DNA of 64,000 nt from positions 186,001 through 250,000 of the forward strand of contig JADNRZ010000013.1 in NCBI GenBank assembly GCA_015501605.1, written 5' to 3'. Below, in pieces: positions 2,767-52,032 of this stretch (the first letter of the stretch is position 1; each line of letters starts with the position of its first letter). The notes below the pieces were generated by a model that saw only the letters and a list, made by a program, of their open reading frames with translations, was not told where the DNA came from and made no database searches. Both the position numbers and the translations under genes were made by a program. The stretch is from Panaeolus papilionaceus. Its lineage: Eukaryota > Basidiomycota > Agaricomycetes > Agaricales.

Positions 2767-3483
2767 CTAATTCAACTTCACCCCCTTCAAAATCCCCACA
2801 AACGGATCAGGCCTATCCGGATTCGGCTTATACTCCGTCAAATTCTGCGCCAGCGTCCTCGCATCCCTCCCCACCTTCCCATCGCCCAACATCCTCTCCA
2901 AAAACGCAGCAGCAAGATCAATCCCCGACGTCACACCCGCCGCACTCCACACCTTCCCATCCACAATCCACCTCCTATCACCCACCCACGTCACATTGTG
3001 GTTGATCAACCCGTTCGCGGCAGCGACTTTGAGTGCTACTTTATTAGACGCGACGCGGTGCCCGTTTAAGACCCCTGTTTGTGCGAGGACCATTGAGCCG
3101 GAGCATACGGTGAGGAGGCCTTTAAGGGAAGGGTCTTTCCAGACCTTCTGCACGAACTTGATAGTCGCGTCAGGGAGGACCATGAATGGATCCGGGCCAG
3201 GGACGAGGAGATAATCGAGCTTGGGCGCTTTCTCGAACGTCGTAGTGGGGATCAACGCTGGGCCTGACGACGCATTGACAGGGTTGAGGTTATGCGAGAT
3301 GTAGTGCCAGTTGATGATAGGCGCGTGATCGACGATAGCTGGGTTAACGTCTGGGTTGATGTCCGGAATAGGCTTGACGTAATCGTAGCTGTGAACCTGG
3401 AGGTAGTCCACTGGTCCTGCCATGTCGAGGAATTGGAAAGAGGGGAGTAATAAGACTCCGAATGTCCAGGTTGGATTGACCAT
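2767..3483 (-). CDS. DJ-1/PfpI family protein (class I glutamine amidotransferase-like)
   Basis: An intronless frame of 238 residues. It begins with the beta-alpha start of the fold (FGVLLLPSFQFLDMAGPVDY), which carries the Asp-x-x-Gly-Pro segment seen in PfpI/isonitrile-hydratase-like proteins. Around residues 120-140 the nucleophile elbow reads VCSGSMVLAQTGVLNGHR, with the conserved Cys. A later SAAGVTSGIDLAAAFLER segment matches the family's C-terminal helix region. The length is usual for a single-domain cytosolic member. Known members include glyoxalase III, isonitrile hydratases and stress proteins, and the substrate cannot be told from sequence. No signal peptide is seen. Confidence 0.85.
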   Translation of the reverse strand: MVNPTWTFGVLLLPSFQFLDMAGPVDYLQVHSYDYVKPIPDINPDVNPAIVDHAPIINWHYISHNLNPVNASSGPALIPTTTFEKAPKLDYLLVPGPDPFMVLPDATIKFVQKVWKDPSLKGLLTVCSGSMVLAQTGVLNGHRVASNKVALKVAAANGLINHNVTWVGDRRWIVDGKVWSAAGVTSGIDLAAAFLERMLGDGKVGRDARTLAQNLTEYKPNPDRPDPFVGILKGVKLN

Positions 3484-5339: not shown

Positions 5340-6620
5340 TTAAAATACCTCAAAAATAGTTTCAGAAGGCACACCCCATCCTCTAACACCTTCGATTCGA
5401 TTATCCATCCTACTCCCAAGCATAACCCCAACCACCGACCCACTATCCTCATCCACAAGAGGCCCACCACTCGAGCCTACCGTCGGCAACGGCCTAAATA
5501 GCATATGCGAAAGGCTATCATACGTTCCAGGCTATCAAATACAAGTTGTCATCAAGTCAGAACTTCGATATCTCAACAATCGATAAGCCAGAAAAAAATG
5601 CCTCACCTCTGCCTCGCGACCCGCAAAGTCTCGATACCCTAACACCTTGCCACGTACCCACCTCCCCCACGTATCTCCAACCCATGGATTCCAGCCCGGC
5701 TCAGATGGGTTCTGTTGTTGAACAAAGTGCGCTCGAATAGTCGTGTCGCGATGGACAGGATAAGGCGACACAGGTAGAGGGTGTATCGCTCCCTTTGGAA
5801 TCCGACATGACAACAGTAGCAGATCTGACCGAGGAAGAGCCGTAACCACCTCATCCACCAAATAGATGCGGAGATCATCCCCTGCGCCCACAAGCACGAA
5901 TGAGCCAGATACCCTTGCTGGTCGTTTTGTTATCTCCGATACGAACAGAGGTGAATGTCGAATCTTCAATAGTTCAACAAGGCATTCGAAAAAGACCATA
6001 TAAAACAGTCAGCCAATTAAGCCCATCAACTATACCATAACCCCATAAAGAAAGGTAGGTTTGAACACACTCACCTCTTCCAAAGTGTGCGCACACGTCA
6101 AGATCAGCGTCTCATCCCTCTCCGCATTCCTTCTCTTCGCATTCAGCGCAAACCCAGACGAAATCGTGATCTTATGCTCTCCCTCGTTCTCCAAACAATA
6201 AGCAACAGTAACCACATTCCTCGCAGCATCATATACCCCACTCCGCATATCCGGTTTCCGATCTTCAGCAGGCCGGGATTCATAGGGCAGAGAAACATCC
6301 AAGATTGTACCAGCAGAATGAATGTACTGGTGCACCAAATGCGGGAGCGACGATCGATGCTGACGAGATGCAGCTTGGAGGATGTGCCTGTCGAGGAGCG
6401 GCGGCACAGGTGGTCGTACTTTCAGCTCTTCAAACCCAGGCGGCGGTCTCGCGATGATAGAGTCTGAAACAGTGGCGAAGCTTGCGGAACCCCGAGGTGC
6501 TGATTTAGCATTACTGTCTGCTCTAATATTCGAGCATGGTTGTGAGAATAGACATCTGGTTAGTGTGAGGTTTGAAATGGATCGAGGATTTCTCCTCAGC
6601 ATTGTGGATGTGAAGGTCAC
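5340..6620 (-). CDS. Trypsin-like serine protease, possibly mitochondrial
   Basis: Three exons (6620-6075, 5963-5607, 5531-5340) close in frame to 364 residues. The triad can be read across them: His in ILTCAHTLEE, Asp in PRSDLLLLS, and Ser in VGSSGGPLVDE followed by SVVGVMLGS. This is the chymotrypsin/HtrA-type fold. The N-terminus is rich in Arg, Ser and Thr with few acidic residues (MLRRNPRSISNLTLTRCL), like a mitochondrial presequence rather than a secretory signal. No PDZ domain is present. Intron 1 lies directly after the catalytic His. The exon 2 acceptor (5964-5966, aag) is less certain than the rest. Substrate unknown. Confidence 0.75.
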
Positions 6621-7014
6621 TTTTCGAGCATGCTGGTTACTGCAAGATCACTTGAAGTTACAGTGGCGATGACGTCAAAATGCTGTGCTTTCAGGTGATG
6701 ATATCGGATAGTAGCGGACCGGGAGCCTGAAGGGCAGTCAAGATAAGTTTTCGGGCGACATACAGCTGCTAGCCATGATGTACGTGCTATTGAAGCTTGA
6801 GTGTATGGAGGTTATTGAAAGGGCGTGAGACGATCGCTTTGATGTGTTTGGATCGAGCGCCAAGTTACCCAATGGGCTTCAACGCCGACAGAGTGATTTA
6901 GTATACCAATCAACGCTTCGAGGAATACACCAAGTACGAATCACAGTATTAATTCCCAAAAAAACCCCTTGAGTTTTCGCATCTCTACTTCTTATACAGA
7001 TCCAAACCACTACC

Positions 7015-8226
7015 CTATCGAGATTCGAGCCCTTCGGACACCTGCGACTCGACCACAGCAGGCTTCTCCAAATTCAAAGGATGCCTCCACCCAACCTCAT
7101 GCCCGTTTTCCATCATCGGTTCCACAAACCCACGAAACATCCACGGCTTCGAATCAACATCACCTCCACCACTACCCACCATCTCCTCGTCCCTCTCACC
7201 CTCTTTCCTCTTCTCCTTCCCTTTCCCCTTCTCCTTTTCCTTATCACCAACCTCACCACCCATCTCCCTCGCCCACCTCATCCCATATCCCTCTACCACC
7301 CTCACCTCGTATACTAACACCTCATGCGGCAACCAATGCAAATTCCTCCACGTCGCCCCCTCCACAATCCTAAAAAATACCTCGAGCGCCCGAGCGTTCA
7401 CTACCGCGAGCGGCCCTTTGGGGTTCCCCCACCATCCCGTGGGCTCGGGTTCTTTTTTCTTCTTTTTCTTCTCTTTTGGTTTGGGAGTGTTGGTGTTCGT
7501 GGTGTCGTTTGAACCTTCGGCTTCGAGTTGTTCCGCTGCTCGTTGCGGAATCGAGTCAATCTCCCCAGGCTCAGGCGTAGGCTCATTCACAGGCACAGGC
7601 ATCGATCGATGCGCATGCTTAGCCCACGCCCTCGCACCAGCGCTCATCCCAACTCTGTTAGGCACCAAATACGCCTTCAAACACTCTTCAACGCTTGGCG
7701 GCGCCGAACCGAGTGCTGACCCCGTTGTAAGCGCGAGTCCCTGCGCGAGTTGTTTGAAGAGTGGGGTTTGGGCAAATTCTAGATCCTCTTGAGAGAGAAG
7801 CTCAGAGTCAGCGTCTTTGTTTTCGGCAGATGGGAGCACAGAGGAAGGAGGGAGGTGTGCGAGGATACGCGATACACGCACACGATCGTCATGTGCGTTA
7901 GGTAGTTCTGTGTGACCAACGCATTGAGGATCAGGAATGGGAGTTCTTGGAACCATTTCGAGAGCAATTTGCCATGGAGGTGGGTCGAAGTCAGGGACAG
8001 GCATAGGCTGCCATTCGCGTCGCTTGTACGGTGCTTGTTGACGGTCTTTTTTGGTTGTGTCTATTATTGCATCTTTCGATTCCTCGGTGAGCCCGGAGCT
8101 ACTATTTGGAGTGTAGATGTAAGATTGGGAGAGGGTGTCAGTAGGAGGAGCTGAACTCGATTCATCCAACGTGAGGGTTCCGACAGGTGGAAGCGTCTCG
8201 GTATCGGCAGGTGAACTCATAAACAA
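7015..8226 (-). CDS. Unrecognised protein with conserved-looking C-terminal half
   Basis: A single exon of 403 residues, with a second in-frame Met at residue 3. The first half is Pro/Ser/Thr-rich and probably disordered. A Lys run (KPKEKKKKKKEPEPT) at about 240-260 resembles a nuclear localisation signal. The ordered-looking part follows: a Trp/aromatic-rich stretch (GWWGNPKGPLAVVNARALEVFFRIVEGATW... LPHEVLVYEVRVVEGYGMRW), an acidic/Lys-rich insert of about 40 residues, then PWMFRGFVEPMMENG. Long frames on the opposite strand here are codon-bias shadows. I do not recognise a family. Confidence 0.65.
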   Translation of the reverse strand: MFMSSPADTETLPPVGTLTLDESSSAPPTDTLSQSYIYTPNSSSGLTEESKDAIIDTTKKDRQQAPYKRREWQPMPVPDFDPPPWQIALEMVPRTPIPDPQCVGHTELPNAHDDRVRVSRILAHLPPSSVLPSAENKDADSELLSQEDLEFAQTPLFKQLAQGLALTTGSALGSAPPSVEECLKAYLVPNRVGMSAGARAWAKHAHRSMPVPVNEPTPEPGEIDSIPQRAAEQLEAEGSNDTTNTNTPKPKEKKKKKKEPEPTGWWGNPKGPLAVVNARALEVFFRIVEGATWRNLHWLPHEVLVYEVRVVEGYGMRWAREMGGEVGDKEKEKGKGKEKRKEGERDEEMVGSGGGDVDSKPWMFRGFVEPMMENGHEVGWRHPLNLEKPAVVESQVSEGLESR

Positions 8227-32027: not shown

Positions 32028-33943
32028 ATGCAGGCTACTCTATTCGGATTCGGCAACCGTATTCATGATCGAGTGGACTGGCCATACGAGCTATTTCATG
32101 TACGCATATTTCAACCAGTTGGTCCTCCAAGGCGACGCTCGTCTTAACCGTTTGTGCCTAAACTTAGGTTGCAGCTATTCTGCCATCCTCTTTCATTCCA
32201 TTGCTCGCTTCAAATACCCCGCCCTCCTCTTCCGATATCGACATCATCAACAACTTCAAGGCCCCCATCCTTGAGAAAATTTCTGAGTTCAATGCAAAAC
32301 AAGATGCAATCCACGACAAAATCAACAATCTTAATGACGAGTTACTACGTCTCGGGGCTGCACGGAGACCGTTCGACAAGCAAGTTGCTGCTTGTAAGAT
32401 CATAACCTCTCCTTTCCGGCGTCTTCCCGATGACATCCTGCATGAGATCGTGAAGCATTGTCCTATATCAGAGGATGCTAAGACTCACTTCCCATCGCAA
32501 TTGGCTCAAGTTTCTCGAAGTTGGCGTCGTGTGGTCCTAAATACCTCTTTGCTCTGGAAGGATGTACAGCTGGAGTGGCCACGGCATAGCGACGCGATGG
32601 ATCAGTTCAAACACTTTGCCCGTTTGTCTCGCTCTTTACCTTTGTCACTCCGCCTGGATGAACGAGTAGTCAAAGTACCAGACTTGGACGAGACGCAAGG
32701 TGCTCTGCCCTTTCTTAAATCTATAGCATTGGACGAAACTACTTTTCAGCGTTTAGAGTGCTTGGACACTTTTTCTCCCAGACACCTCCAGATGCTAGAC
32801 GTTTTGAAGGTTAACAAGCTGCCATTGCTCAAGTTCTACATGCAGATACAAACCTCCGATCATTTGGTTAGTGAAGATGGGAGGGACGAAGATTTTGAGG
32901 CCTTGTCAATCAACGAATTGTTGAAAAATGCCCCGCAACTGGCACATCTATGGTTTGGCACCGCCGACTCGTATATGGGACCGCTGCTCAGTTTGCCTCT
33001 TCATGCATTGGGACATTGGTCGCAGCTGACGACTTTGCATTTCTTTGGGTCACTCTACGTCGATGAGTGGCACACGCTACTCAAAATTTGCACCCACCTC
33101 GAGAGAGCATGGGTTCGGGTTTCGGCACCAGACGATACCGAATTTGACACCCCTGACCTTTTCCTCCTTCATACACACACTCACTTCAAAGAGCTCATCA
33201 TTCAACTCGTTGGATACGCCCATGAGATTCTGCTCCCTTTCGCTGGTTTCCGCTTCCCAAGACTCAAATCACTGCAAGTCGGATTTATCCGTACCAACTT
33301 TTTAGCTGTCCCGACTCCCGCTCAGCTTCAACCAGCAGATTTTGCAGACGTCTTCCCCTCGCTAGAAAACCTTGTTTTGATGAGCACCAATGGAGTTGAG
33401 GACCGATTTGATGAGGTTTTCTCTCTCCTCCTTGCCGTTCCAACAACAAAATCCCTCCTCACCAATTTCTGTGGCAAATACTATCTGGAATTTCTAGAAT
33501 TTCTACGTTCACCTCAGGAAGACGGGCAGTTTCCGCTTCCTGCTCTCCAAGAACTGGAAGTAGAATTTTCGCCTTCTCCAGCAAACAATTGGTCCAACAA
33601 CGGAGAGCAAAAGCTCACTGATTCGCTCTTCAAAACGTGTACCCTCCGGTCGTCAAAGACCCCATCCGAAACAAGTACGGAGAATCCAACGCCTCTGATA
33701 TCTGTGCTGCGTAATATGACTGTGCGGTACAATCCAGGAACTATGAGTGACTCCAGTGGCATCACTGGGGAGACAAAGCGGAGGATGACGCTGTACTTCC
33801 ACAACCTCGAGTTCCAGGTAGATACCATGGAGGCCGATATCGAGATGAAGGTTCGCAGTTTCACAGCAGGGTATAGGACTTTTGCTAGTCCTGTGATGAG
33901 GGACTTTATGCATACGTTCGCATTCTGGAGATTTTCGGTGTAA
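32028..33943 (+). CDS. F-box protein, tandem family copy 1
   Basis: Exon 1 (32028-32099, 24 residues: MQATLFGFGNRIHDRVDWPY...) is joined by a phase-0 intron to exon 2 (32168-33943), giving 615 residues. The order is a short conserved head, LPSSFIPLLASN linker, coiled coil at about 50-90 (KAPILEKISEFNAKQDAIHD), and F-box at about 102-145 (SPFRRLPDDILHEIVKHCPI ... VSRSWRRVVLNTSLLWKDV). A long Leu-rich C-terminal half ends in a FMHTFAFWRF-type motif. Such agaricomycete F-box proteins are thought to select substrates for SCF ubiquitin ligases, and the target is unknown. It is the most divergent member of the array. A start placed inside exon 2 would lose the conserved head. Confidence 0.75.
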
Positions 33944-34203
33944 AGCTGATATGCAGAAGATTCTTGACGCAAGAGATACCTACATATTTACCGTAAATTA
34001 TCAAACTAAGTATTGAAGTATTTGAACATCTGTTTTAAATTGATCCTCTTTTATTGAGCCGAGTTACCGGATTGGCCAAGCTATCAGTTGTTTTCTACAC
34101 ACGGGATAGGGGTGAGGAGACGCTGATCATTCAAATTGCGCATCGCGACTCTTGGAATTAAACCTTTTACCACTACCACTATCACCACGCACCAACCGTA
34201 CGT

Positions 34204-36145
34204 ATGGAAAATTTTGGACCACCCGACAAAAATCACAGTCGAGTAGAATGGCCAACTGAAATGTTTCAGGTGTGTAAATGTGGCTGACACAGGCTTGACG
34301 GCAATACTCTATGTTGGACATTACTCAGACTCACCATGTATCTATCGACAGGATTCTGTGCCCCTTCCAACTTCTTTCATTTCGCTTCTCAGTAGCAATG
34401 CAGCACCCTCTTCTTCCGACCTTGAGTTTGTGAAAGAGTTCAAGGCACCCGTTCTTGATAAGATATCCGAATGTCAGCGTGGGGAAGACGAGATAAGGCG
34501 CCAAATTCAGGAGCTTGAACGCGAATTGGAGGTGTTGCAAATCTCCCGAAAACCACTCGAAAAGCAAGTCTATGCCTGCGACGTTATTACTTCTTCCTTC
34601 CGGCGACTTCCAGACGATGTTCTTCACGAGATCATTCGACATTGCCCAATTTACTCCAAAAACCAATGTTACGCTCACTTTCCCTCAGTACTTGCACGAG
34701 TCTGTAGACGTTGGCGCAAGTTGGTCCATGGGACCTCATCTCTCTGGACGTACCTCAAGCTAGTATGGCCGAGGAAAAGCGATCCAATGGCGCATTTCAA
34801 TCACTTCGCTCGCTTATCTCGCTCCTTACCGCTCAAGATCACTTTGACTGAACTTCGGCCCTTTGAACTCAAGACGGCTTTGATGGAACTAGAAGGAAAC
34901 GATATTCTTTTCTTTTTCCGAGGCCTAATGTCGGATTTGACAGCCTTACGTCGCTTAGAGGTCTTGGAGGTCCTGGCATCCCCGAAATGCGAAATGTTGA
35001 AAATTCTCAAGGACAAAGATTTACCGTTGCTCAAATCATGCGTCCTGCTACCCCCAGGCCACGGTGGGGGCGTGGCGGATCCAGAAGAGGATCGCGACGC
35101 ATTCATCCTCATGGTCGTCCACGAACTGCTGGAGAACGCTCCGCAGCTTACGCAACTGTGCTTCGGTGGTCACGAGTTAAGCCCGGAACCGCTGTTGAAG
35201 CTCCCGCAGGAACAACTTGCGCGTTGGTCCCGGCTGACGACGCTGAACATCTCTGGTTGCGTTTATGTCGACGAGTGGTACAATCTCCTCAAGCTTTGCA
35301 ACAATCTTCAAAAAGCATTCATACCTTTGATGGCACCAGCTGACTTCCTTTTTCCGATCCCCGACCTTTCTCTTCTTCACCCCCACGAACACCTAGAGGA
35401 GCTGATCCTCCAGCATAGATCATATCACCAGCACATTTTACTTCCTTTCGCCGGCTTCTCTTTTCCAAAACTGAAGGCTCTACAGATTGGGTTTAGTGAC
35501 AAATACTCTACTTCCGAGGATCAAGTCAATCTCCAACATTCTGACTTTATCAATGTCTTCCCCTCGCTGGAGACACTTGTTCTCGACAATACCGTTGTGC
35601 TCCAAGGCGGGATCGACGCTTTCGTTCCATTGATGAGATCAGTTCCGATGACTAAATCTTTGCTCATCTCCTTCTCTGGCAAACACTTTATTGAATTCCT
35701 GAAATTTATGCGGGAACCACTTGAGGACAACTGCCTGCCTCTACACAATCTCCGCTGCCTCGAGTTGGAGTTTATACCCTCATTGGACAAACCCTGGACG
35801 AATGAAATCGAATACGAGCTCACCAAGGCGCTACTGGCAACCCGTCGAATCAGAACGCCCGTCCATCCTCTGCCAAATGACACAGAAGATGCAACTTCCT
35901 TGCCAGTTTTGGATGAAATGATCGTGCGCTTCAACCCCATTTCTCGACATCAAAAGGATTTCGACGTGCTGGAGAAGAAGGCAGACATGATCCAATTTTT
36001 CATCCGGCTTCGTTCGGAGATCGACATGATAGACGACGTTGATATCACCGTGATCCCGTTGACGAGGGATTATAGGCTGCTTGCAAGCCCCCTGATGAAT
36101 CAATTTATGTCTCCATTTGAGTACTGGAAGTCATCAATGCCCTAA
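34204..36145 (+). CDS. F-box protein, tandem family copy 2
   Basis: Exon 1 (34204-34269, 22 residues with NHSRVEWPTEMFQ) and exon 2 (34352-36145) give 619 residues. LPTSFISLLSSNAAPSSSD is followed by a coiled coil (KISECQRGEDEIRRQIQELE), the F-box (SSFRRLPDDVLHEIIRHCPI, VCRRWRKLVHGTSSLWTYL) and a Leu-rich tail ending FMSPFEYWKSSMP. Reading exon 2 back through the intron gives an apparent longer frame, but the matching exon 1 in all four paralogs shows the spliced form is right. Confidence 0.78.
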
Positions 36146-36412
36146 ATCGTAAATATCATGTAAAGATTCTACCGCCCACTACAACACTTGCGTTTCGCTC
36201 AAACACAATTGCTGTGAACTTGTGGTAAGTAATTCCCAGTTTACGACGAACTGAGGGATTGACTGTTAAGACTGTCGCACACCAGTGGCTGCAATTATTG
36301 TAACTCGCTGCAATACAGGGGCTTGTTCGGGTGACGCAGTGACGGTCCAGGTCACCCGAGCGCGAAGCTAAGCACGCGCTCCGAGCCTTTCAAACCACAA
36401 CCATACCACAAT

Positions 36413-38301
36413 ATGCAAACTTTCGAACTAGACGACGAGCAACATAGGCGAGTAGAATGGCCATTATATCTGCAGGACGTGCGTAAATCCACATCAATTT
36501 GTCTTTTAGAGCTGCCTTCTGAACTACACTTAATAAACAGGTCTCCATACCCCTGCCAACTTCTTTCATTCCGCTGCTCACCAGCAATGCACCCCCCTCC
36601 CCAGCGGATATCCAGCTAGTGAAAGATTATAAAACAGGCATTATTAAACAGCTATCTGAGAGCAAGCGTAAAGAGGACGACATCCAGTCGAAAATCCTGG
36701 AGCTCCAGTTGGAACTGACTAAAGTCAAAAATTCTCGTCAACCTCTCAAAAAACAAGACCATGCTTGCGACATCATCTTGTCTCCTTTTCGCCGTCTTCC
36801 TGATGATGTAATTCATGAAGTTTTTCAACATTGCCCCATCTATTCAAACGCCAATGAACAACACACGTCTGGCAAGCATTTTCCTTCAACGCTCTCTCAA
36901 GTCTGCCGACGCTGGCGCAAGCTGACGCACGGGACCTCATCTCTCTGGAAGGACATGAGGCTCTTATGGCCCAGGAAACACGATGCAATGAAATTATACG
37001 ACCACTTCGCTCATTTTTCTCGCTCCATGCCGCTTACACTCACTCTGGATGGAGGCATATTACACTATAAAGACGCCGCAAGTAATGCTCTGCTTTTCGT
37101 CCAGCGTTTAATGTCAGATGTGGCAGTTACCCGTCGCCTTGAGGGTTTGGAGGTTGTGGGCCCCCTACTATTTCAGGTGTTACAAACCATGGAGGGGAAA
37201 AAGTTTCCTCTGCTCAAGTCCTGCCTAATGCTGCCCATGAAAAACGGCGACCTTATTAAAGGGGACGTGGAAGAAGGAGAGGAAGAAGAATTCGATGTTT
37301 ACTTCTCTCTCAACAAACTACTGGAAAATGCTCCACGACTCGTGCAGTTGTGCTTTGGCGGACGGACCATGAACGCAGATTCATTAGTGGACCGTCCACA
37401 GCAAGACTTCCGATGTTGGTCCCAGCTGACAACATTGTATATTTCTTCGGGGTCCATTCGAGTCAATGAGTGGCATTCACTTCTTAAGATCTGTCGCAAC
37501 CTCGAGAGGGTTTGGGCGCCAGTTACAGAACAAGAAGCAGATATCGACTTTTACTTGAATACCTCTCAACCCTATGTGCACCCTCACTTGCGAGAAATGG
37601 TTCTTCATTATGAAGAACATTACCAACACATTCTGATCCCCTTTCTGGGTTTCCGTTTTCCGAAGCTTGATGCATTGCAAGTTGGATTCCACAGCTGCAG
37701 TCTTTCCGATCCTGATATGCAGGCCGATCTCAAGGCTTCAGACTTCCTCGACACCTTCCCCTCCCTGGAGACCCTCATCATCCGAGACACCTCTGAAGTT
37801 GATGATGGAATTGGCGGTTTTATCCCTTTGCTAGAATCTGTGCCGACGACTAAATCTCTGATTATTTGCTTCTCCGGCAAATATGTCTTAGATTTTTTGA
37901 ATTTCATCCAGAAACCGCTCAACACCAATCGTCTACTTCTACATAACCTCCGCAACCTCGAGCTCGAATATTCACCTTCCCTGCGAGATCCATGGTCAAC
38001 CAAATTTGAACAACGATTCACTGCAGCATTGTTGAGAACCCGTGAACAGAGGTCGTTAACTCGATCATTTTACAAGATGATAGTTCGTTACAACAACGCA
38101 GTGTCTCCACACAAAGAGGTGGTTTTTTGGAAGACGGGAAAAGATATGGCTTCCTACCTTCGGCGTCTTGACCATGAAATATCCTTGATGGATGATGTTG
38201 ATATCAATGTTCTCCTCGAGACAGACGATTATAGGCGTGTTGCGAGCCCGTTGATGAGACGGTTCATGGTTTCGTTCGAGTTTTGGAAACCATTACTTTA
38301 A
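36413..38301 (+). CDS. F-box protein, tandem family copy 3
   Basis: Exon 1 (36413-36478, with QHRRVEWPLYLQD) and exon 2 (36541-38301) give 608 residues. It shows the same head, coiled coil (KQLSESKRKEDDIQSKILEL), F-box (SPFRRLPDDVIHEVFQHCPI, VCRRWRKLTHGTSSLWKDM) and C-terminal Leu-rich domain ending FMVSFEFWKPLL. It is closest to copy 4 in both protein and flanking DNA, so these two are the youngest duplicates. An acidic insert (GDVEEGEEEEFD) lies in the Leu-rich part. Confidence 0.78.
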
Positions 38302-38580
38302 ATATGTTATCCCTGTTCAAAATCTTGTCATTATGCCCTCTTGTTTTTTCCTACCTAATTCCATTCATCTGTTGTTGAGCATGCCCTGTCAGTTGAACGC
38401 CAGAGTTGCATCCGACTGTCATTATGCTACCTGGATAACCCATAAAAGCTATCAGGCATACCTTGAGGATTTGGCTTCAACACCGCTATTGTTGGTACCA
38501 TGCTGCTTTTTAACTCTTGCATGCAGTAACAAGTTCACTTAGAAGAGTATATGGGATCAATACAAACTCAACACTCAACA
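38302..38580. repeat. 3' flank of F-box copy 3, duplicated after copy 4
   Basis: Sequence after copy 3 recurs in diverged form after copy 4 at about 40940-41210. Shared points include tgcatgca with acaagttcacttagaagag/cagctcagttagaagag and a trailing catatggga/tatatggga. It shows that the duplication unit extended past the coding region. Confidence 0.6.
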
Positions 38581-38867
38581 CTATAAACACATTGTTTGGG
38601 GTCGTGGAAGTTGATTCGAAGTTGTTGGGGGGTTGTTGATGTAAATATAATGTCAACGTTTTTGTTTCGTACGAACGCGATTACTGTGAACTGGTAATAA
38701 AAAACTTTAAGACAAGGTTCAATTTCTGAGAAAAAGGGGCAATGAGCATGAATTCTAGTTCGCTAAGTTCGTGGTTTCCTAACCGGGTCACTGTAGCATG
38801 AAGCTAAAAGGTCGCGTTCACGGACGCGTTCTTTGAATCAAACCACGACCACACATCGACAAGAATA

Positions 38868-39023
38868 CTATCATCGACCAGTACTTCGTTCCAACCGGAA
38901 CTTCGTGCGGTCACGAAATTTAGCGGGGAAAAGTGACAGCTCGTTCCCGAGAGTGACAAATTCCCCGCCAACACGTAACGCGGCACGAAGTCCTGGTTAA
39001 CACGAAGTACTGGTCGGTGATAG
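38868..39023. mobile_element. MITE-like palindromic element with TA target duplication
   Basis: A 156-base insert is nearly a full inverted repeat. The left end CTATCATCGACCAGTACTTC mirrors the right end (reverse complement CTATCACCGACCAGTACTTC), with pairing continuing inward for over 40 bases. An inner stem pairs around GCGGGGAA/TTCCCCGC. It is flanked by TA at 38866-38867 and 39024-39025, as produced by Tc1/mariner-type transposases. It has no coding capacity. The second TA supplies the A of the start codon of F-box copy 4, and the paralogous upstream sequence of copy 3 lacks the insert. Confidence 0.8.
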
Positions 39024-39024
39024 T

Positions 39025-40932
39025 ATGCAAAATCTCGGACAAGGCGACGAGCAACATGAACGAGTAGAATGGCCAATTTATCTGCAAAATGTATGTAAGA
39101 GCACATCCAGTTAGCCTTTTTACAACTACTGTATTCTGCTTACTGAACACGTTATTTATCCACAGGCTTCAATATCCCTGCCAACTTCGTTCATCCCGCT
39201 GCTTAGCGGCAATGCACTCCCCTCTTCAGCAGATATCAAGCTTGTGAAAGATTTCAAGGCAGGCATCTTTGAAAGAATCTCTGAGTCCAAGGATATAGAG
39301 GAAGATATCAGAACTAAAATCCAGGAACTCGAGCGCGAATTAACCGAAGTCAAGTATTCGCGTCGACCTCTCGAAAAGCAAGCCTACGCTTGCGATGTTA
39401 TCACATCTCCCTTCCGCCGACTTCCAGACGATATCATTTACGAGGTGTCTCAATACTGCCCTATCTACCACGGTAAACGACACTTTCCCTCAACATTAGC
39501 TCAAGTCTGCAGACGGTGGCGCAAGCTGGTACATAGGACCTCATCTCTCTGGAAGGAGCTAAAGCTTTTTTGGCCCAGGGAACACGATCCAATGACACTG
39601 TTTAATCACTTTGCTCATCTATCCCGTTCCATGCCGTTTACACTCACCCTGGATGGGAGCGCATCAGGGAAAGACGATGCAAGGCATATTCTGCTCTTCC
39701 TTGAGCGTTTATTGTCGGGTGAGATAGTTGTTGACCGCCTAGAGGCTTTGGAGGTTCAGGGACCACTACTATACAGGGTGCTGCAAACCTTGGATAGAAA
39801 AAAGTACCCTCAGCTCAAGTCCTGCCTGATACTACCCATGGAACACAACGTCATTATCCAGGGGGAGGCGAAAGGAGAAGCGGAAATGTTATATGACCCC
39901 TACTTCGCTTTTAACGAATTGTTTAGATATGCCCCACAGCTAGAACAACTGTGGTTTGCTGGACCGTCCATGCACGCAGGCTCGCTGATAGGTCATCCTG
40001 AGGACTTTGGATGTTGGTCCCAGTTGACAACATTGCACATCTCGGGCACAATTCGTGTCAAGCAGTGGCACTCCCTCCTCAAGTTCTGCAACAATCTCCA
40101 GAGAGCTTGGGTTCCCGTTGCGGAACAAGAAACAGAAGCTGACTCTTATTTAAATCTTTCGCCAGCCTACGTGCATCATCACTTGCAAGAACTAATCGTT
40201 ACATACGAGCATCACTATGATCACATCCTTCTCGCTTTCGCTGGCTTTCACTTCCCGAAGCTGCATGCATTGCAAGTTGGATTTCACGGAGAAATCTATC
40301 TCTCTCTTACCGACCAGGCGACTCTCATACCTTCAGACTTTCTCAATACCTTTCCGTCACTGGAAACCCTCATCATCAAGGACTCCGACGAAATTGAAGA
40401 TGGATTCGACGGTATCATCCCGCTTCTCCGTGTTGTTCCGACGACCAGATCTATCCTCTTTTCCTGCACTGGCGAACGTATGTTGCGGTTTTTGAACTGC
40501 ATCCAATTACCATCTGAAACCCCACTTCTGCCTAATCTCCTTGACCTCGAGCTAGAATTGCTCGTAACCTCCTCATATGCCTGGTCAACGAAACTAGAAG
40601 AGCGGCTCACCAACGCACTATTCGACACCAGTCGGGCGAGGTCGTCGACCCTCCTATTACTCAATACTCCAAAAGATGCACAATCAGTACAAGTGTTGCA
40701 TGAGATGAAACTACGTTACAACCCGTGGGTCCTTCACATCCAAGAGGACGAATACGCACAGACGAAGTCAGACGTTATATCATACTTCTGGCGACTTCAT
40801 CACGAAGTATCCTTGCTGGATAACGTTGATATAACTGTGGACTTGAATGAGACCGACTATAGTAGGCATATGGCGACCTCTTCAATGAGAAATTTCATGG
40901 ATTTGTTTGAGTTTTGGAAAACCACGGTTTGA
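39025..40932 (+). CDS. F-box protein, tandem family copy 4
   Basis: Exon 1 (39025-39090, with QHERVEWPIYLQN) and exon 2 (39166-40932) give 610 residues. The layout is head, coiled coil (RISESKDIEEDIRTKIQELE), F-box (SPFRRLPDDIIYEVSQYCPI, VCRRWRKLVHRTSSLWKEL) and Leu-rich tail ending FMDLFEFWKTTV. The reading frame is intact throughout. The MITE-like element ends at the base before the T of the flanking TA, so the whole near 5' leader is now transposon sequence. Translation may be affected, because the leader can fold into a hairpin directly before the AUG if transcription starts upstream of it. Confidence 0.76.
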
Positions 40933-43795: not shown

Positions 43796-44636
43796 TCAAA
43801 GCATCACAACGCCCAATACAGCCACAACACCAACCAAGCCCAGGACAAAGGCACTCTGGCCTGCGCTCCTCAAAGCGGTATTCGTATTCTTCGAAGGCGG
43901 CGCCGACGTCGACTGCGTCGCTGATGCGCTTGTAATATTTTTAGTACACGGCGGACCGAGGGCACCTTGTTGTGCGCTGTCATCTAGGGTCAAATCGGCG
44001 CATTGATACAGTGCACCGTCGCCGCCGTCGAATAAGACCTGACGTCCATCCATGCCGCGGGGTTAGGATCGAATACGAGTAAGTATTACGTTTAAGAGAG
44101 TTGAGGAAGTAAAAAGGCTCACCTGAACAGTTACGTTTTGCCCGTTTGTGAGGCCCGTTGCATTTGAGCTTTTGAGGTCGAGAGAAACGCAGACGACGCC
44201 TTCGCCTGTGGCTTGGAAGAACGCGTTGACTTGTGAGAAATCGTTGAACGAGGTTGCGTTGGTGGTGGAGATGAAGAATGCGGCTGGGGTGAAGCGTATT
44301 GTCAGCAACAATTAGAGCATAGATGAGAGAAAACGGGGATAACTCACAGACCCAGTCTGGGTGCTCTGAATTCCAGCTGAACACACCGCCGGTCAATGGG
44401 AATCGAGTGCGGTTTGCTGTAGGGTTGGTGTATCCATCTGTAGAGAGAGGAATGCATCAGCACCACTCCCAAAAAATCCGAATGTTCGAGCAGCATGGTA
44501 GTAACAACGTACCGCAGAAACTGGGTTCATCATCCTCCACGAAAACACCACGCGGGGGTGGATATTGTAACTGGAAGTGGGCATGCACCGTCGTCGCAAG
44601 GAAGAGCGAAATCGCAAGGTGGAAGAACGAGAACAT
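43796..44636 (-). CDS. BIM1-like/X325 copper-binding secreted protein, GPI-anchored (copy A)
   Basis: Four exons (44636-44513, 44437-44348, 44283-44123, 44038-43796) close to 205 residues. A signal peptide ([19 protein letters not shown]) should be cut before His, giving a mature N-terminal His-Phe as in copper His-brace proteins. The family pattern follows: [39 protein letters not shown], then [11 protein letters not shown] and [11 protein letters not shown] Ser/Thr-rich linker and hydrophobic tail ([17 protein letters not shown]) form a GPI-anchor signal. The fold is LPMO-like, but known members (fungal X325, Cryptococcus Bim1) bind copper and act in copper acquisition or the cell wall rather than cutting polysaccharide. 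It is a paralog of the gene at 45956. Confidence 0.85.
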
Positions 44637-44796
44637 CGCTGTAGTGGACCAAGCTAGTAGGCCGGTAGTAGACAGGAAGAATGACCAGATGGTAGCTCAA
44701 GTTGGGTTTAGTGCGACACTAGTGCTAAGACGCCGAAGTCAGCGAATGAAGAAGCTGAGGTGTAAGGAAAAGCTAAACGCCGTCCTGAGCCGACGT

Positions 44797-44806
44797 CTTT
44801 TATATA
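44797..44806 (-). promoter_or_regulatory. TATA box of BIM1-like copy A
   Basis: TATATAAAAG on the minus strand, about 160 bases upstream of the start codon. Copy B has a TATA box at nearly the same distance. Confidence 0.55.
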
Positions 44807-45955
44807 TGACCCAACCTCTCTTCTCTCGGTTACGAAAGTGGATACTCACAGATAATTAGACACACTGCTATGTGAACTTTGCTGCTGGCGAGATCGGTTA
44901 TACACTTATATACAGATGAAAAGATTTTTTTAGAGGCTGCCACTAGTACCTATGAGCTATTTTTAGATCGTTGACAGGGCTGGGGATGTGACAGCTTTTT
45001 GTGCTTTATATTTTTCGATGGTGACAACCATCTATCTTATCGCGCCTTCGACGTAGGGTTGATTCTGGGGTGGGTCAATTAACAGTGGGAAAAACTAATA
45101 GATAAAGCCTCCCGCGAAGCTCATCAATAGTGCATTCAGTGTGCACCTCGTTTGCTTCGAGGCTTCGAGCTACTGCTACCTCGTATCCTCGAATGGCTAG
45201 TGTAGCCACTGCGAACTTTTAGTACTTGCGATTACCCAGCTGACCTGTCTATGACTTCATCCTTCTCATGCAACAAACACCTTTCAGCACCTGTGCACTG
45301 AAGATCCCAATTAAATCGCGGTAAAAGAGCGGCCAGATCGTCATTTTCAGTATGTATAAATATAATATCATCACATATGTAGCGTAGGCGTCTGCGTCCT
45401 CGTGCCCTGGGTCAGCCGCCCAATTTCGAATCCCCGATGGGCCAAATCTAGCTGAACGAAAAGGTGCCGCATGATTTTGACATGACATTGGATCATCAGA
45501 AGGCCTTCTTCTCCACAATCTGAATCAATTCAATTCAGTTCCTGTCAGTGCCAGTCGTTGTCAATGTTATGTCATCCTGAGCTCTGAACGTATGGATATA
45601 TTGCCTATCAGTACCTTCAAGTTCTTGAGATGATAATCCATGAACAGTTACACTTCAAGAAGCAGAAAGACAAAGTCCAGTCGAAAGTTGGAAACGAATC
45701 AGACCGTTATGCTTGTACTCCTTCCCGTTCGATTCGATATCATTCAAACCCAGTAATAATTTGTAAGTGCAAATGAGTACATCCAACACGAAAATATGCA
45801 CAGGTGTAAAATCCGAAGAGTTCAGATGCGATAAGAAATAAGGTCATGCAATGCGTAACATGCTTTTGCGTAGGGGGTCGTAATATTAAGATCATGATGG
45901 GGTAAAGCGACCAGTAGGGGTCGTCGAGGCGAAAGCGAAGGGGTTCGCTTTAGCT
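44807..45955. other. Spacer between the two BIM1-like genes
   Basis: Upstream region of copy A and 3' region of copy B. No other gene seen. I found no exact TTTGCTC copper-response motif on either strand, only a near match (ctttgctgc at about 44878). Confidence 0.4.
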
Positions 45956-46813
45956 TTATAGCACGGCAGCGACAGCACCGACCAAGCCAAGGAAGACAGC
46001 AGTGTATGCTGACAACTCATGGGACAATCCAAAGGCAGCACCACCAGCAGGAGCAGGGGTCTGGCTGGGGGTTCCGTGACTGCCGCTGTGTCCTGAAGAG
46101 TCGGTGGCGTTCTCGCAAGTGAAGTCGCTCACGCTTGTGAGGTTGGCAGAGAGGGTGAGGTCAGCGCACTGAAGGATCAAGGAAATGATGTTAATTTCCG
46201 TGATAATAATTATCTATAGAATGAACAAACGCACCTGGTAGAGGTTACCATCGCCACCTTCGAAGACGACTTGAATAGTGACGTTGGAGCCATCGCCGAC
46301 ACCTGGGATGTTAGCAGCGGAGATGTTGAGGGGCATGCAGAAAGTTCCGGCATTGTCCTCGTGGGCGAAACCCCTGACGAGCTGCTGCTGGCCGTTGGCG
46401 GTGAAGTTGTCAAAGTTGTTGGGGTTGGAGACGGTGGAGATAATCACTCCAGCTATTATCAAAGAAGAAGGAAGAGATGATGAGAAACAATGAACAACAA
46501 CGACGATAGAAGACAAAGATGCCCACCAGTCCAACCAGGGTGTCCAGCGCGAACGGAAAAGATACCACCAGAGAGAGGGAACACAGTCCTGTTAGTTGTA
46601 ACGTCGGTGTGGCCACCTATAAACGAACAACGAAAATCATAATGAGGATCCCAGATATAAATAACTAGACGAGGAATATCTCAATAACGTACCGCAGAAC
46701 TTGGGCTCATCGGCAGCGACAAAGGCACCACGAGGACCGGGGTAGAGGAGACGGAAGTGTGCGTTCGCAGAGGCGAAGAGGCATGCAAGGAAGGTGAAGG
46801 TAGAGAACTGCAT
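45956..46813 (-). CDS. BIM1-like/X325 copper-binding secreted protein, GPI-anchored (copy B)
   Basis: Four exons (46813-46693, 46616-46527, 46452-46235, 46168-45956) close to 213 residues. The signal peptide MQFSTFTFLACLFASANA ends before His-Phe-Arg-Leu, which becomes the mature N-terminus. Shared family features are YPGPRGAF, EPKFC, NRTVFPLSGGIFSVRAGHPGW, GTFCMPLNIS and [11 protein letters not shown] Ser/Gly/Pro-rich linker and hydrophobic end (YTAVFLGLVGAVAAVL) predict a GPI anchor. The His of the HP motif and the N-terminal His are the expected brace ligands. Three introns match copy A in place and phase, showing tandem duplication. The CTR transporter gene lies about 1.2 kb upstream on the same strand. 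Confidence 0.88.
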
Positions 46814-46963
46814 CGTGATACTGAAATGAAGCGTAGATGTCGTCGAAGAAAAAGGGCGAGACGGGTGACTCAAAAGACAAAGCAAGCTCAACGGCGAGAT
46901 GAGAACTTGGAGCAGAGAATGGAGGAGATAAACCTGCAATGAAGAAAGCACAAAACGTTGTGT

Positions 46964-46973
46964 CTTTTATATC
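46964..46973 (-). promoter_or_regulatory. TATA box of BIM1-like copy B
   Basis: GATATAAAAG on the minus strand, about 150 bases before the start codon. Confidence 0.5.
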
Positions 46974-47995
46974 AAACCAAGAGCTAAGAGAGGGTTCAAG
47001 CTGATCTATCGAAATTTCAACACCATCGGAGCGGTCCTAGGTCTGCTCATCAGCCCGATGCCATTGATTTCGGTTCTTGGATTTTCGATTTTCTTTTTTT
47101 TTGATTTATCTTGCCTTATCGGTATCCGGACGAATTTCGCAAAAAGTACCCTGACAGTCAACACCGTACATCCGCTGTGACATTCCAAGAAATCGCAATA
47201 AATCTCAAGACAGTGAAAAAGTTTTTCAAGCCAAAAGCCTTGGCCGAACGGAATGCCCTTGTCACACTCGATTAATGCCAAGCCTTTGTCGTCCCGTCTT
47301 CCCTGCGTGCACTCCGATGGTCTTCTGAATCTCAAGCATGTTGTTGACATTAAGTACGATTGAGACGTAGAAACTTAGTGTGTAGATAGCTTTGTTGAAA
47401 TGCCTGAATCTATTCACCTGGGCATTGTGTTGCAACGGCGATGTGTATGGCTCCAACCGCTTAACCGCGCCAACGCCATCGCCGTACTTACACCGTGCAG
47501 GTCCTCATCGGATCCCAAGCAAAAAGAAAACCGACACGCAAGGCAGGGTATAATAACATCTTGTAGGGTTTTCAGGCCTTTTCGACCTGTGGAACAGACA
47601 GACAGCCACACACGTCAAGACACTCCAAGGTCCCAGTGAGAACGGCGAACACAAAACCGCATCAGCTGACACCCTGCGCAAAGAGGCCGCGAATGTGCGT
47701 GTCGAATAGCAGGTACACATCTACACAATGTGTCCCAATCAATCACACCCCCAACTCGTTCATTCATCACAACGGTGTATTGCACTTGAGCTTGAGTCCA
47801 GACAACGCCTCAAGGGGCTTACAAAAGCGATGACTATCATATCACACACACCAAGCAAGAAGGTGAAAACGAAAAGGAACGGGGAAGGAAACATAAGGGG
47901 TGAAATGAAAGTTCAAAGTTGTTCCTGGTGAGATCACCGTCGAAAGACATCATTTTGATTCTTGAATCCGATGTGTAGCGAAAGGCCAATGGGGT
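46974..47995. other. Spacer between BIM1-like copy B and the copper transporter
   Basis: No credible gene, only short frames. It holds the upstream region of copy B and the 3' region of the transporter. Confidence 0.4.
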
Positions 47996-48752
47996 CTAAT
48001 GAGCACCACCATCCATGGGGGCAATCCTACCAAACAGAATTTCTCCCACTCCAAGGCCAACAACGATGCCGATGATGTACGCAGCTTGGAAGGTCCTATA
48101 CATTCGATGTTAGAGCGAATATCCAACGTCAAGAATACTCAGCTGCACTCACATAACAGCCAACATGAGCAGATACGTGATGAACATCTGCACCGCAAAC
48201 AGGATACCGCGCGGAATATCATGCGACGGGATGAACGGCGGAATATGCCTGACAATCGACAGTCGAGGCTGCTTGCGTCCGGCATCCGCTGAGGTCTCTG
48301 CACTCTGCTCCCGGGAGAGCTCTTGTATGTCTTGCGCAGATACCTTCTCAGTCGAGTCGCCAAAGCGCCGATTAAGCTTCGCAGCGAGCGCGCGATCGGT
48401 AGCGTAAGTCATCGCACGCGCCCTAATTAACAGAATCATAACGAACATTAAATCACATTAATATTTCATTCGATGACCTTCAAGAAAAAGAGTAAACCAA
48501 AAGAAAAAACACAAACCTTTGACGCCAATGCAAAGTAAAGGCACCACGGACGGCAGCAAGGTAGCGCTCAAGCATGGCCAGCAAAAACAGCCCAATGGCC
48601 GCTCCTGCAAGTGCACCAGCCGAACTAGGTGCCCACGCTTCAAAGAACAGGAAATCGCCGCCCGCGACGTGCAGATAGGGCACCATCATCGCATGAGCAG
48701 ATGAATCTGTCATTGTCGAACCAGAGGAATCTCCGTGTCCCGCGTGCGACAT
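47996..48752 (-). CDS. CTR-family high-affinity copper transporter
   Basis: Three exons (48752-48517, 48422-48153, 48095-47996) close to 201 residues. The N-terminus is rich in His and Met (MSHAGHGDSS, AHAMM), as in extracellular copper-binding domains. TM1 is about GALAGAAIGLFLLAMLERYL. A charged cytosolic loop with EKVSAQDIQELSREQ follows. TM2 contains the Met-x3-Met signature in YLLMLAVMTFQ, with intron 2 inside its last Met codon. TM3 has Gly-x3-Gly in VVGLGVGEILFG. These are the defining features of Ctr trimers that carry Cu(I) across the plasma or vacuolar membrane. It is short, like Ctr1/Ctr4/Ctr6-type fungal members. It clusters with two BIM1-like genes. Confidence 0.93.
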
Positions 48753-49922
48753 GATGATAGTTCAATAGAAAGAGAAAAAATCGGGATAGGGCTGGTGAAA
48801 TCAAAAGCGAAGGGGCTGTTCGGGAGAATGTCGTGGTTGTTGGACGACAAGTAGCGAATTCGAAGTAGGTTGTTAAAGTAGGTTGCAAATGGAAATTGAA
48901 ATGAATTGGTCATTCACACCACAGCCTAGCCAAAGTACGCTGGGTTTGGAACGGGCCGGATAATGCCGAGTAACGAGGTCAAGGAAAGAAGACAAGAACA
49001 CAAGCCCATTTGATGCTTATCTGTTCAAGTGCCGCGATGTTCATAGTTCGCTATCTTATCCACAAGGAGGGGATTGAAAAAACCATACGAAAGTCAAGAC
49101 CCGTGGTCGATAGAAGAACAGAGCCGGTCAACGGATAAGGGAATTTCAAGCGTACGGGTGATGGATAACGCTAGACAGGAGAAGATAGAGAGATTGGAGC
49201 AGTCCATAAATTTGCACGCTTGAGAAAGAGAGATAGGGAAGCTAGAGATATGGTTGGGCAGAAGAGACCTAGCACATGAAGCACGAATTATTTTTGGCAT
49301 GATGTTGTAAGCTTTTGGCAGTTTGTGGTAACGGCGTTGAGTAGAGGTCAGCCGATGTCTGGTAGACAGAGAGTGGCAAGCCAAATGCAATTGAGGCTGC
49401 TTGTGAGATATAGCTAGGGCGTTTGATAGGTGTATCCTTAACGAGATATGTTGTGAAAGGGTGGAGAGCACCAGAACGGGCAAAGCAGAGGAGGTTGTCC
49501 GTCACCAGCTGTCGTCAATAAAAACGCTCATAACATAGAATAAATCCATAGAGAAGCGTTGCTTTTGCAAGCAGAGAAAGAGGACACATAGAGAGCCAGA
49601 CATTGTGGTGGCATGATACAGAGATGGAAGAAAGATTGAAAGGACAGAAAAGCAACGCAGGAGAAATGTTGCGGCATTTTTGCGGAGCCTTAATCATGGA
49701 CCTCTGACACTCCTATTTGTTCTCACGATAATATTTGAAAGGCATCTCGTGATCCGTGTTTCATCAGCATTGCCTCATCCCGATTGATTCCTTCCCACTG
49801 TGTTCAACAAATGTGTCGTCAATCTCTTCAACCAGTCGTCGACGGTCAACGCACTCTTGAGCTTCAGCTTTATCATCCACCTTAAGCTCCTGTCCTACTT
49901 TTCTAGCTGACTGAAAGTTAAA
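48753..49922. other. Spacer, possible unassigned short frames
   Basis: About 1.2 kb between divergent genes. A minus-strand frame at 49510-49269 (CFARSGALHPFTTYLVKDTP..., ending CFMC) follows a possible intron acceptor at about 49511. I could not complete a gene around it. No repeats seen. Confidence 0.3.
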
Positions 49923-50612
49923 ATGCTCCGTAACGCTCTCTCTCGTTCTACCCGAACACTTTCACGCACCACGCTCGCATCGACACCTTCTAGATTCTCA
50001 AATGTCGTGTCTCGCCCTGCTCTTCTCTCTGTTCGCTTGAACTCTTCAGATAGCGGAAAGGCACCTAAAACACCCGAACAGCAAGCCAAGAAAGCTGCTT
50101 TGGAAGCTAGAGATAACCTCCAGCGAGACTGGGATGCTAAAATCTTGAGCTACGAGGAGTTGTTGCCAAAGACTCAGAGCCCATCGCCCGTTCGTGTTAT
50201 TCTTCCATTCTATATTTGAACGCACCTAACATGGTGTTTAAATTTGTGTATAGAATGCATACCTTATTGACGTCCGTGAACCAGACGAGGTTATTCAAGG
50301 AATGATTCCTTCCGCTGTCAACCTTCCCCTCTCCGTGCTCCCCGCCGCACTCAACCTCCCCTCAGCGGAGTTCAAAGAGAAATATAGTTTCTCTAAGCCT
50401 AAGAAAGACCAAGAGGTCACTTTTTACTGCCGTAGTGGTATGAGGAGTAGCACCGCCAGTGATGTTGCAAAGAGGAACGGATACACGAAGTGAGTCGTGC
50501 TTTTGTGTTATGGATTACGGTTTCGTTGCTGATGTTTTAATGCAGCATTTTGAACTACAAGGGCTCTTGGTTGGAGTGGACAGAAAAGCAGGGCTCTAAG
50601 CCTTCTGCGTAA
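49923..50612 (+). CDS. Mitochondrial single-domain rhodanese (thiosulfate sulfurtransferase-like)
   Basis: Three exons (49923-50189, 50254-50489, 50546-50612) close to 189 residues. The N-terminal 45 residues are Arg/Ser/Thr-rich without acids (MLRNALSRSTRTLSRTTLAS), a textbook mitochondrial presequence. The rhodanese fold reads NAYLIDVREPDEVIQG, then the active loop FYCRSGMRSSTA with the catalytic Cys, and ends YKGSWLEWTEK. The Cys-Arg-Ser-Gly-x-Arg loop matches thiosulfate:glutathione sulfurtransferases such as yeast Rdl1/Rdl2 and human TSTD1. The frataxin gene starts about 320 bases downstream in the same direction. Confidence 0.9.
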
Positions 50613-50934
50613 TCTTATCTCGAACTACAGTAGATGATATGTTTTGGGGGAGTTATGTGTTTAAATTTTCACAATTCCAAATGGTCATCCTCGACTTGTC
50701 TTTCCCTGTCGACCACGTTAAACTCGCTGCATGTATCAGTAATAGTCATATCTGTGACTACGTACCTCTACGACGTTCCTGTCTAAAATATAGCACAAAA
50801 TATCTTGAAATGACGTTCAAAACCCTATAAATGACGAACCCATAAACCCTAACCTAATAACACCTTGCTACACCGAAACTGTAACCGGGACCTTCCACCC
50901 TCATCTCAATCCAACTTGTGCAATAACCTGAACC

Positions 50935-52032
50935 ATGTCCCTGCTAACCTCTTCTGTCCGGTCTATTCTCCGTTGCTCGAGTAAACCTAATGCTGGAACA
51001 TCCTATGCTGTCCGAACACTGTCAACTACATCTTCTGCGCCTACATGGACATGTCGTGCGCGCACTCCAAGTGCAAGTCTGAGTTTGGCAACAAACACGT
51101 CTCGTGTGTATTCTAAGAGAACAAGTTCATCGCCGCTGGTGCATAGACGAAGAATGGGGAATCCTGCGGCGCCTCAAGGGGCTTTGAGGTGTGTTTGTTG
51201 TCTCCCGCCTCAGGATTTAGGGAAGGGGATTGATGGTTGCTTGCCTTTTCTTTCCTTTCGAATTGCACTGCTCTGTTCACTACCTCGCCCTGTTTGTTCT
51301 GAATGGACGGGTCATGGACGGGGAAATAAAGCGATATCCCCATGGACACGTATCATCAGGTTTCGGACCATACGATGGAGCAGTTGTATGAGGAACTAGA
51401 AGCCCTTATTGATGAGCAGGGCGAGCCGGGGTATGAGGTTGAGTATCATGTTAGTATCGTTACGCTCTCTTTGCTTGCTTCACGCCTTTCTCTCTCTTTA
51501 CGTTCCTTCGTTTCTCTGTTTGATATGCTTTCTCTTCACGTCCCTGTCATTCTGTGCCTTTCTAGACACACTATAACGTCACACTATTAGACTCTACTTA
51601 CCCATATCCACTCTTCAGTCTTCATCCACAACCTAACCTAAATTCATCTAACTAACACCTTCTATCACAGAGTGGAGTCCTAACACTCAACCTTGGTCCC
51701 CGAGGAACATATGTGATCAACAAGCAGCCGCCGAATAAACAAATCTGGTTATCGTCTCCCGTAAGGTATGCACTTCACATGTTTCTTTATTTTCCACCCC
51801 ACCCCTCCTACTCACTCCATACTCATGCACCGATACTAACCAACCCCTCCCCAGCGGTCCCAAACGCTACGACCTGACCCCCAACGGCGAATGGACCTAC
51901 CTCCGCAACGGCATCACCCTCGACACGCTGCTCAACACTGAGCTGAACCAGGTATTCATGCAGCGTGTAGAGTTTGATTTGAGTATTCCAATGGAGAGGT
52001 TGGGTGTGTGGAATGGGAGTGGGGAGTCGTAA
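50935..52032 (+). CDS. YFH1: Frataxin, mitochondrial iron-sulfur assembly factor
   Basis: Four exons (50935-51188, 51332-51449, 51671-51765, 51855-52032) close to 214 residues. A long Ser/Thr/Arg-rich leader (about 85 residues) is the mitochondrial presequence. The frataxin domain starts with helix 1, [18 protein letters not shown], bearing the acidic iron-binding ridge. The beta sheet follows ([38 protein letters not shown]), then the final helix LDTLLNTEL. The Asn-Lys-Gln-x-x-x-x-Gln-Ile-Trp-Leu motif is the family's ISU-contact strand. It activates the cysteine desulfurase on the Isu scaffold. Introns 2 and 3 fall inside the domain. Confidence 0.92.

Follow-up and report, generated by a model that had tools for sequence, protein, structure and literature searches.

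The DNA analysed here, referred to as the window, comprises 64,000 nucleotides of the dung mushroom Panaeolus papilionaceus (G000:C5:186001-250000) and lies within a contig of 1,552,141 bases (C5). On its minus strand, between positions 43796 and 48752, three spliced genes are arranged in the order CTR, BIMA and BIMB with a total span of 4,957 bases. The CTR gene (47996..48752; exons 48752-48517, 48422-48153 and 48095-47996) encodes a copper transporter of 201 amino acids. It is followed by BIMA (45956..46813; exons 46813-46693, 46616-46527, 46452-46235 and 46168-45956), coding for a predicted secreted copper protein of the X325/BIM1-like family with 213 amino acids, and by BIMB (43796..44636; exons 44636-44513, 44437-44348, 44283-44123 and 44038-43796), coding for a second X325/BIM1-like protein with 205 amino acids. 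All three gene models, joined at GT-AG introns, gave intact proteins. The intergenic regions upstream of BIMA (46814..47995) and BIMB (44637..45955) measure 1,182 and 1,319 bases, respectively. An initial annotation, made from the DNA letters, had described a physical cluster of three consecutive minus-strand genes for two X325/BIM1-like proteins and a CTR transporter with MxxxM and GxxxG motifs. The spliced models bear out the gene arrangement, and the Pfam matches and motifs given below confirm the protein identities.

The CTR protein matched PF04145 with 114.2 bits (E 1e-32). Both hallmark motifs are conserved, M165-x3-M169 in the second transmembrane segment (TM2) and G182-x3-G186 in the third (TM3), the membrane segments being assigned by the family motif alone. 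Its outer segment is about 25 residues long, contains four methionines and has no signal-like start. In the 50.85 Mb assembly three CTR loci were found, located on C5 (the window), C20 and C56. Searches with the PF20238 profile and with BIMA as query returned only the two X325 genes of the window; both searches were run exon by exon, a procedure that can miss diverged copies. The probability that any of three CTR loci falls at most 5 kb from a single X325 locus by chance in a genome of this size is about 6e-4. At C20 the second CTR gene is adjoined by a ferric reductase gene (PF01794, PF08030) on the same strand, so that a partner gene for copper uptake stands beside two of the three CTR loci, X325 at C5 and the reductase at C20, the flanks having been scanned at these two. 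The C20 pair, a CTR with a Met-rich outer segment and the reductase, occupies about positions 3494-7919 on the minus strand of L021 (G000:C20:233000-242900). None of the six PF08030 matches, from a search that scores the best candidates only, lies in the window.

The BIM1-like profile PF20238 covered the whole domain in BIMA (101.3 bits, E 8.1e-29) and BIMB (98.1 bits, E 8e-28) at a cut-off of 27 bits. The structurally characterized relative is LaX325 of Laetisaria arvalis (PDB 6ibh, 6ibi, 6ibj), which has the same ligands and, according to the model described below, the same fold as BIMA; it differs in being 48% identical to BIMA over the aligned region (E 2.5e-44), and BIMB is more distant (E 2e-25). 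The putative copper ligands of BIMA, H19, H66 and D138, were invariant in all 24 aligned sequences including LaX325. Their equivalents in BIMB are H20, H67 and D132, corresponding to the N-terminal histidine, an inner histidine and the aspartate of the GGDG loop. We extended the comparison to 121 sequences consisting of BIMA, BIMB and 119 of the 120 listed X325 rows, the excluded row being P0095, a merged gene model from Termitomyces Mi166. For each histidine, all 119 rows that have a residue at the position retain it; aspartate stands in 119 of the 121 sequences and glutamate in the remaining two. The third copper ligand has been assigned to an aspartate on a Gly-rich loop (PMC7529816; this and the other articles are cited here for their available parts), which fits the GGDG aspartate, residue 122 of LaX325 by count. 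A supplementary-figure legend likewise names a GGDGN loop and gives two histidines and an aspartate as copper ligands (PMC11766592). Loss of the aspartate in BIMB, which a comparison of EDNAG with TGEGV in one alignment column had raised, was rejected, as that column is not conserved and BIMB retains the GGDG aspartate. The alignments show that both X325 proteins keep the residues of a putative histidine-brace plus aspartate copper site; at the level of sequence, the ligands expected by the initial annotation have not been lost.

A structure prediction, proposed earlier as a check, was run for the BIMA domain. The AlphaFold2 model was that of P0001, the best protein match to BIMA, which comes from P. 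papilionaceus and is identical over its 168 residues. It is almost surely the same gene and hence not independent evidence; the model covers BIMA residues 1-168, and the fold result refers to the BIMA domain only. The model (predicted local distance difference test, pLDDT, 89.4; predicted template modelling score, pTM, 0.83) superimposed on crystalline LaX325 (6ibh) with a TM score of 0.90 and a root-mean-square deviation of 1.7. The four best structural matches were all LaX325, while chains of lytic polysaccharide monooxygenases (LPMOs) reached a TMq of at most 0.50 among the 50 matches listed. With the aspartate ligand residue kept and LaX325 rather than an LPMO as the closest structure, BIMA does not group with the LPMOs.

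Signal peptides were recognized by eye in BIMA and BIMB, ending with A-N-A and V-H-A and followed immediately by His-Phe. Their C-terminal tails are hydrophobic (mean hydropathy over 15 residues of 2.45 and 2.86, respectively) and follow a stretch rich in Ser, Thr, Pro and Gly. A hydrophobic tail was also present in 108 of the 110 listed X325 homologues of at least 195 amino acids. Judged from these sequence features, the tails are consistent with a glycosylphosphatidylinositol (GPI) signal, which is unproven.

Linkage of CTR and X325 genes in other species was assessed from species names and locus tags in the match lists, which held 120 of 191 X325 matches and 120 of 129 and 120 of 237 CTR matches; two genes were assigned to the same contig when the contig size was identical in both lists. 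A named row in both lists was available for 27 species. Removal of Marasmius tenuissimus and Agrocybe pediades, whose rows came from different assemblies, left 25; many species had a row in one list only and lay outside the comparison, as did Termitomyces Mi166, whose single row is the merged model. Among the matches listed, CTR and X325 shared one contig in 20 of the 25 other species, where about 1.7 are expected by chance. For genomes of 30 Mb with gene content proportional to contig size, the chance of reaching 20 of 25 is near 1e-23. The pairing is therefore not unique to this assembly. Chance neighbourhood, or an artefact of assembly confined to the Panaeolus genome, would leave both this recurrence and the low probability calculated for P. 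papilionaceus itself without a cause, and we regard it as very improbable. A search for viral contigs as a source of the linked DNA gave 24 pattern matches, none of them a relative.

In six species besides Panaeolus, five of the 25 and Termitomyces Mi166, the two genes are close. Consecutive locus tags were found in Hohenbuehelia (007648/007649) and in Hebeloma (440165/440166), tags of the latter style being not strictly positional. Small contigs carry both genes in Collybia nuda (32 kb), Leucogyrophana (51 kb) and Hygrophoropsis (76 kb). P0095 of Termitomyces Mi166 joins a CTR to a BIMA-type X325 sequence in the order seen in Panaeolus. A true fusion was considered for this entry; a merged gene model is more likely, as the CTR portion breaks off ahead of the third membrane segment and the X325 portion has a signal-like start of its own. 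Contig sharing, in places close, spans Agaricales, Boletales, Russulales and other orders including Polyporales, to which we take the compared species to belong. In Gloeopeniophorella convolvens, a single contig of 1.25 Mb carries the X325 gene and two different CTR genes (P0265, P0159), perhaps a duplicated importer.

A tree of 63 X325 sequences (LaX325, BIMA, BIMB and 60 chosen rows of the listed matches) separated two types. BIMB belongs to a group of 26 rows with full support (100 in the Shimodaira-Hasegawa-like approximate likelihood ratio test, SH-aLRT), composed of 17 rows from Russulales, Boletales, Polyporales, Gloeophyllales, Punctularia and Plicaturopsis and nine Agaricales rows including BIMB itself. 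All 36 rows outside this group, BIMA included, are from Agaricales. The spread among orders suggests that BIMB represents the old, widespread type and BIMA an extra Agaricales copy, placed here between CTR and BIMB. It speaks against an old BIMB type that the tree rooted with LaX325 nests the 26-row group within Agaricales rows; with only one long branch as its root, this tree gives no firm direction. Both types lie on one contig in all four other assemblies that list both (Lyophyllum, Laccaria, Hypsizygus and Tricholomella), and in Hypsizygus and Tricholomella their locus tags are one or two apart. Two BIMB-side copies share a contig in each of Fomitopsis schrenkii and Pisolithus orientalis, and two BIMA-side copies occupy different contigs in Coprinellus micaceus and Ephemerocybe angulata. 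From Crucibulum laeve, a pair of X325 proteins whose accessions are consecutive has been reported (PMC11766592).

Taken together, we consider it probable that the locus is a conserved Agaricomycete gene cluster for copper acquisition, with X325 proteins anchored in the wall and holding copper next to the importer. BIMA and BIMB would be secreted and held at the cell surface by GPI anchors, where they would bind copper in the wall. After reduction, the copper might be passed to the CTR importer encoded by the neighbouring gene, by analogy with the hand-over proposed for Cbi1/Bim1 and Ctr1 of Cryptococcus neoformans, the mechanistic model with most support. The linkage may persist because a shortage of copper calls for all of these genes at once. 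The Cryptococcus system involves the same two families, with a histidine brace plus aspartate; Cbi1/Bim1 carries a GPI anchor, to which the GPI-like tails in Panaeolus correspond, and hand-over of copper to the CTR importer has been proposed (PMC7529816, PMC9258870). Low copper strongly induces Cbi1/Bim1 by way of Cuf1, and the anchored protein interacts with Ctr1 and acts in concert with it (PMC9258870). The two systems differ in that a single Cbi1 is described for Cryptococcus in the parts of these articles available, whereas Panaeolus has two divergent X325 genes beside CTR. In Pseudogymnoascus destructans, copper shortage raises both CTR genes and two of the three BIM1-like genes (PMC12113139, PMC13208438). 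Loss of the X325 homologue IcFBR1 of Isaria lowers a CTR3 transcript, although the phenotype of this loss is reported as a developmental one (PMC9695133).

Several observations, set out in this and the next two paragraphs, weigh against a conserved copper-acquisition cluster. For 15 of the 20 linked species only a shared scaffold of 154 kb to 4.7 Mb is known. Moreover, the genes were not on one contig in five of the 25 species, namely Fomitopsis serialis, Paxillus rubicundulus, Moniliophthora roreri, Amylocystis lapponica and Termitomyces T112. Each of their five CTR rows represents a cluster of two or three sequences, and the contig given could therefore belong to another member of the cluster. 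In a CTR tree, all 21 same-contig CTR rows fell on the side of the window CTR, which counts in favour of the cluster, the branch between the two sides being weak (support 24). The CTRs of F. serialis and M. roreri and the second Artomyces CTR fell on the side of the C20 CTR and, from this placement, are likely paralogues. Those of P. rubicundulus, A. lapponica and Termitomyces T112 are on the window side, and their non-linkage is not explained by paralogy. Finally, for Panaeolus cyanescens, Psilocybe cubensis and several other close relatives a CTR was listed and no X325 protein was among the 120 rows listed; the X325 genes may have been lost or left unannotated in these species.

The promoters add to the counter-evidence. 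TTTGCTC was absent from the 1 kb upstream of CTR, BIMA and BIMB, and also from that of the C20 CTR. In the same scans BIMA alone had one TTTGCGCA at -869 and one TGCTCA at -231; TGCTCA occurred at or below background (2.4 expected in the four promoters), and an Ace1-type pattern was found once or twice in each of the four, near background. No 8-mer was common to the 700-base upstream regions of CTR, BIMA and BIMB, and a single 7-mer was shared by all three, compared with a mean of 6.8 in random window triples. Shared Mac1-type regulation is thus unsupported by the site scans; a degenerate or different motif could still act, and two copper-fist loci, on C2 and C12, provide the genome with candidate regulators. 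Co-regulation of CTR, BIMA and BIMB is unproven, and nothing computed supports this part of the initial annotation, whose interpretation as a whole is partly supported: the cluster and the protein identities hold and the co-regulation does not find support. The lack of a motif common to the three promoters, together with a tandem arrangement with gaps of 1.2-1.3 kb and no shared promoter, would suit passive synteny, an old unbroken neighbourhood in which nothing ties CTR to X325 in function or regulation. In this group of mushrooms the local order of genes is soon lost, and a neighbourhood without a tie would have had to survive across several orders. The partners, in addition, already act together in Cryptococcus (PMC9258870). 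On balance we judge passive synteny unlikely, albeit the most serious of the competing explanations.

X325 homologues have also been tied to morphology and wall phenotypes (PMC9695133, PMC9258870). These proteins might accordingly serve mainly the cell wall or development, with copper binding as a secondary property and CTR supplying copper elsewhere. The Isaria homologue IcFBR1 influences the formation of synnemata (PMC9695133), and Cbi1 of Cryptococcus has an effect on chitin and chitosan (PMC9258870). The main proteins secreted by Crucibulum laeve included X325 members on every medium tested (PMC11766592). Almost invariant copper ligands and the linkage of the X325 gene to a copper importer are hard to reconcile with such a role, which appears to us rather improbable.

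The component families are all known, and adjacent copper-uptake genes occur in other fungi. In Fusarium oxysporum, Mac1-controlled CTR-FRE clusters (ctr3/fre9 and fre12/ctr1b) likewise place copper-uptake genes side by side, and there the genes are induced together in shortage (PMC11563359). They differ in having a reductase as partner, divergent genes and Mac1 sites (PMC11563359), whereas the Panaeolus cluster has an X325 partner, a tandem arrangement and no such site in all three promoters. A further case is the pair BLP2 (VC83_03095) and FRE (VC83_03096) of P. destructans, in which a BIM1-like gene and one for copper uptake bear successive tags and are both induced in shortage (PMC12113139). 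Its neighbour is a reductase and not a CTR, and the adjacency is read from the tags, the main text, as far as available, being without the word 'adjacent' (PMC12113139). No description of a CTR-X325 linkage was found in the literature searched; the two founding X325/Bim1 papers lay outside its scope, so an earlier mention is possible. We know of no report that links Cryptococcus Cbi1 to CTR1, nor of any account of the gene context of LaX325.

The two kinds of CTR in the genome also deserve comparison. Nine of the 12 C20-side CTRs could be read; their starts are signal-like as judged by eye, and they contain six to nine methionines. Set beside the short outer segment of the window transporter, these features hint at separate tasks for C5-type and C20-type transporters, with no clean rule. 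A rule by which CTRs linked to X325 would have outer segments poor in Met was tried and not retained: three of the 20 readable sequences (of 21) have at least eight methionines and several starts look wrong, which leaves it as a hint. A bolder reconstruction is offered tentatively, as being less likely to hold than to fail. An ancient linked module of CTR and wall-anchored X325 would predate the split of the main Agaricomycete orders. Insertion of BIMA between the two in Agaricales would have created a two-step extracellular relay, with paralogues holding copper at different places or affinities ahead of an importer with a short outer segment. A second module in the same genome, Met-rich CTR plus ferric reductase, would have a separate role.

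Other genes of the window were recorded alongside. On the upstream side of the CTR gene, positions 49911-52032 of the plus strand hold a rhodanese-domain gene followed by a frataxin gene, both divergent from the copper cluster. Four consecutive long open reading frames (ORFs) of 591, 632, 592 and 605 amino acids, tandem paralogues by eye, occupy positions 32168-40932 of the plus strand; the fourth, the only one scanned, showed an F-box-like domain at the cut-off score. A minus-strand ORF of 243 amino acids at 2767-3498 resembles DJ-1/PfpI by eye.

The role of X325 proteins outside Cryptococcus has been unsettled because they look LPMO-like and, in the available text of PMC7924993, no sugar-cleaving activity is shown for those tested. 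The recurrent linkage, from Agaricales to Boletales, Russulales and Polyporales, offers independent evidence, of a genetic kind, for copper import as an old task of X325 in mushrooms. The cluster presents a compact three-gene deletion target in a laboratory mushroom, and its conservation suggests that these little-understood proteins help to feed copper into mushroom cells.

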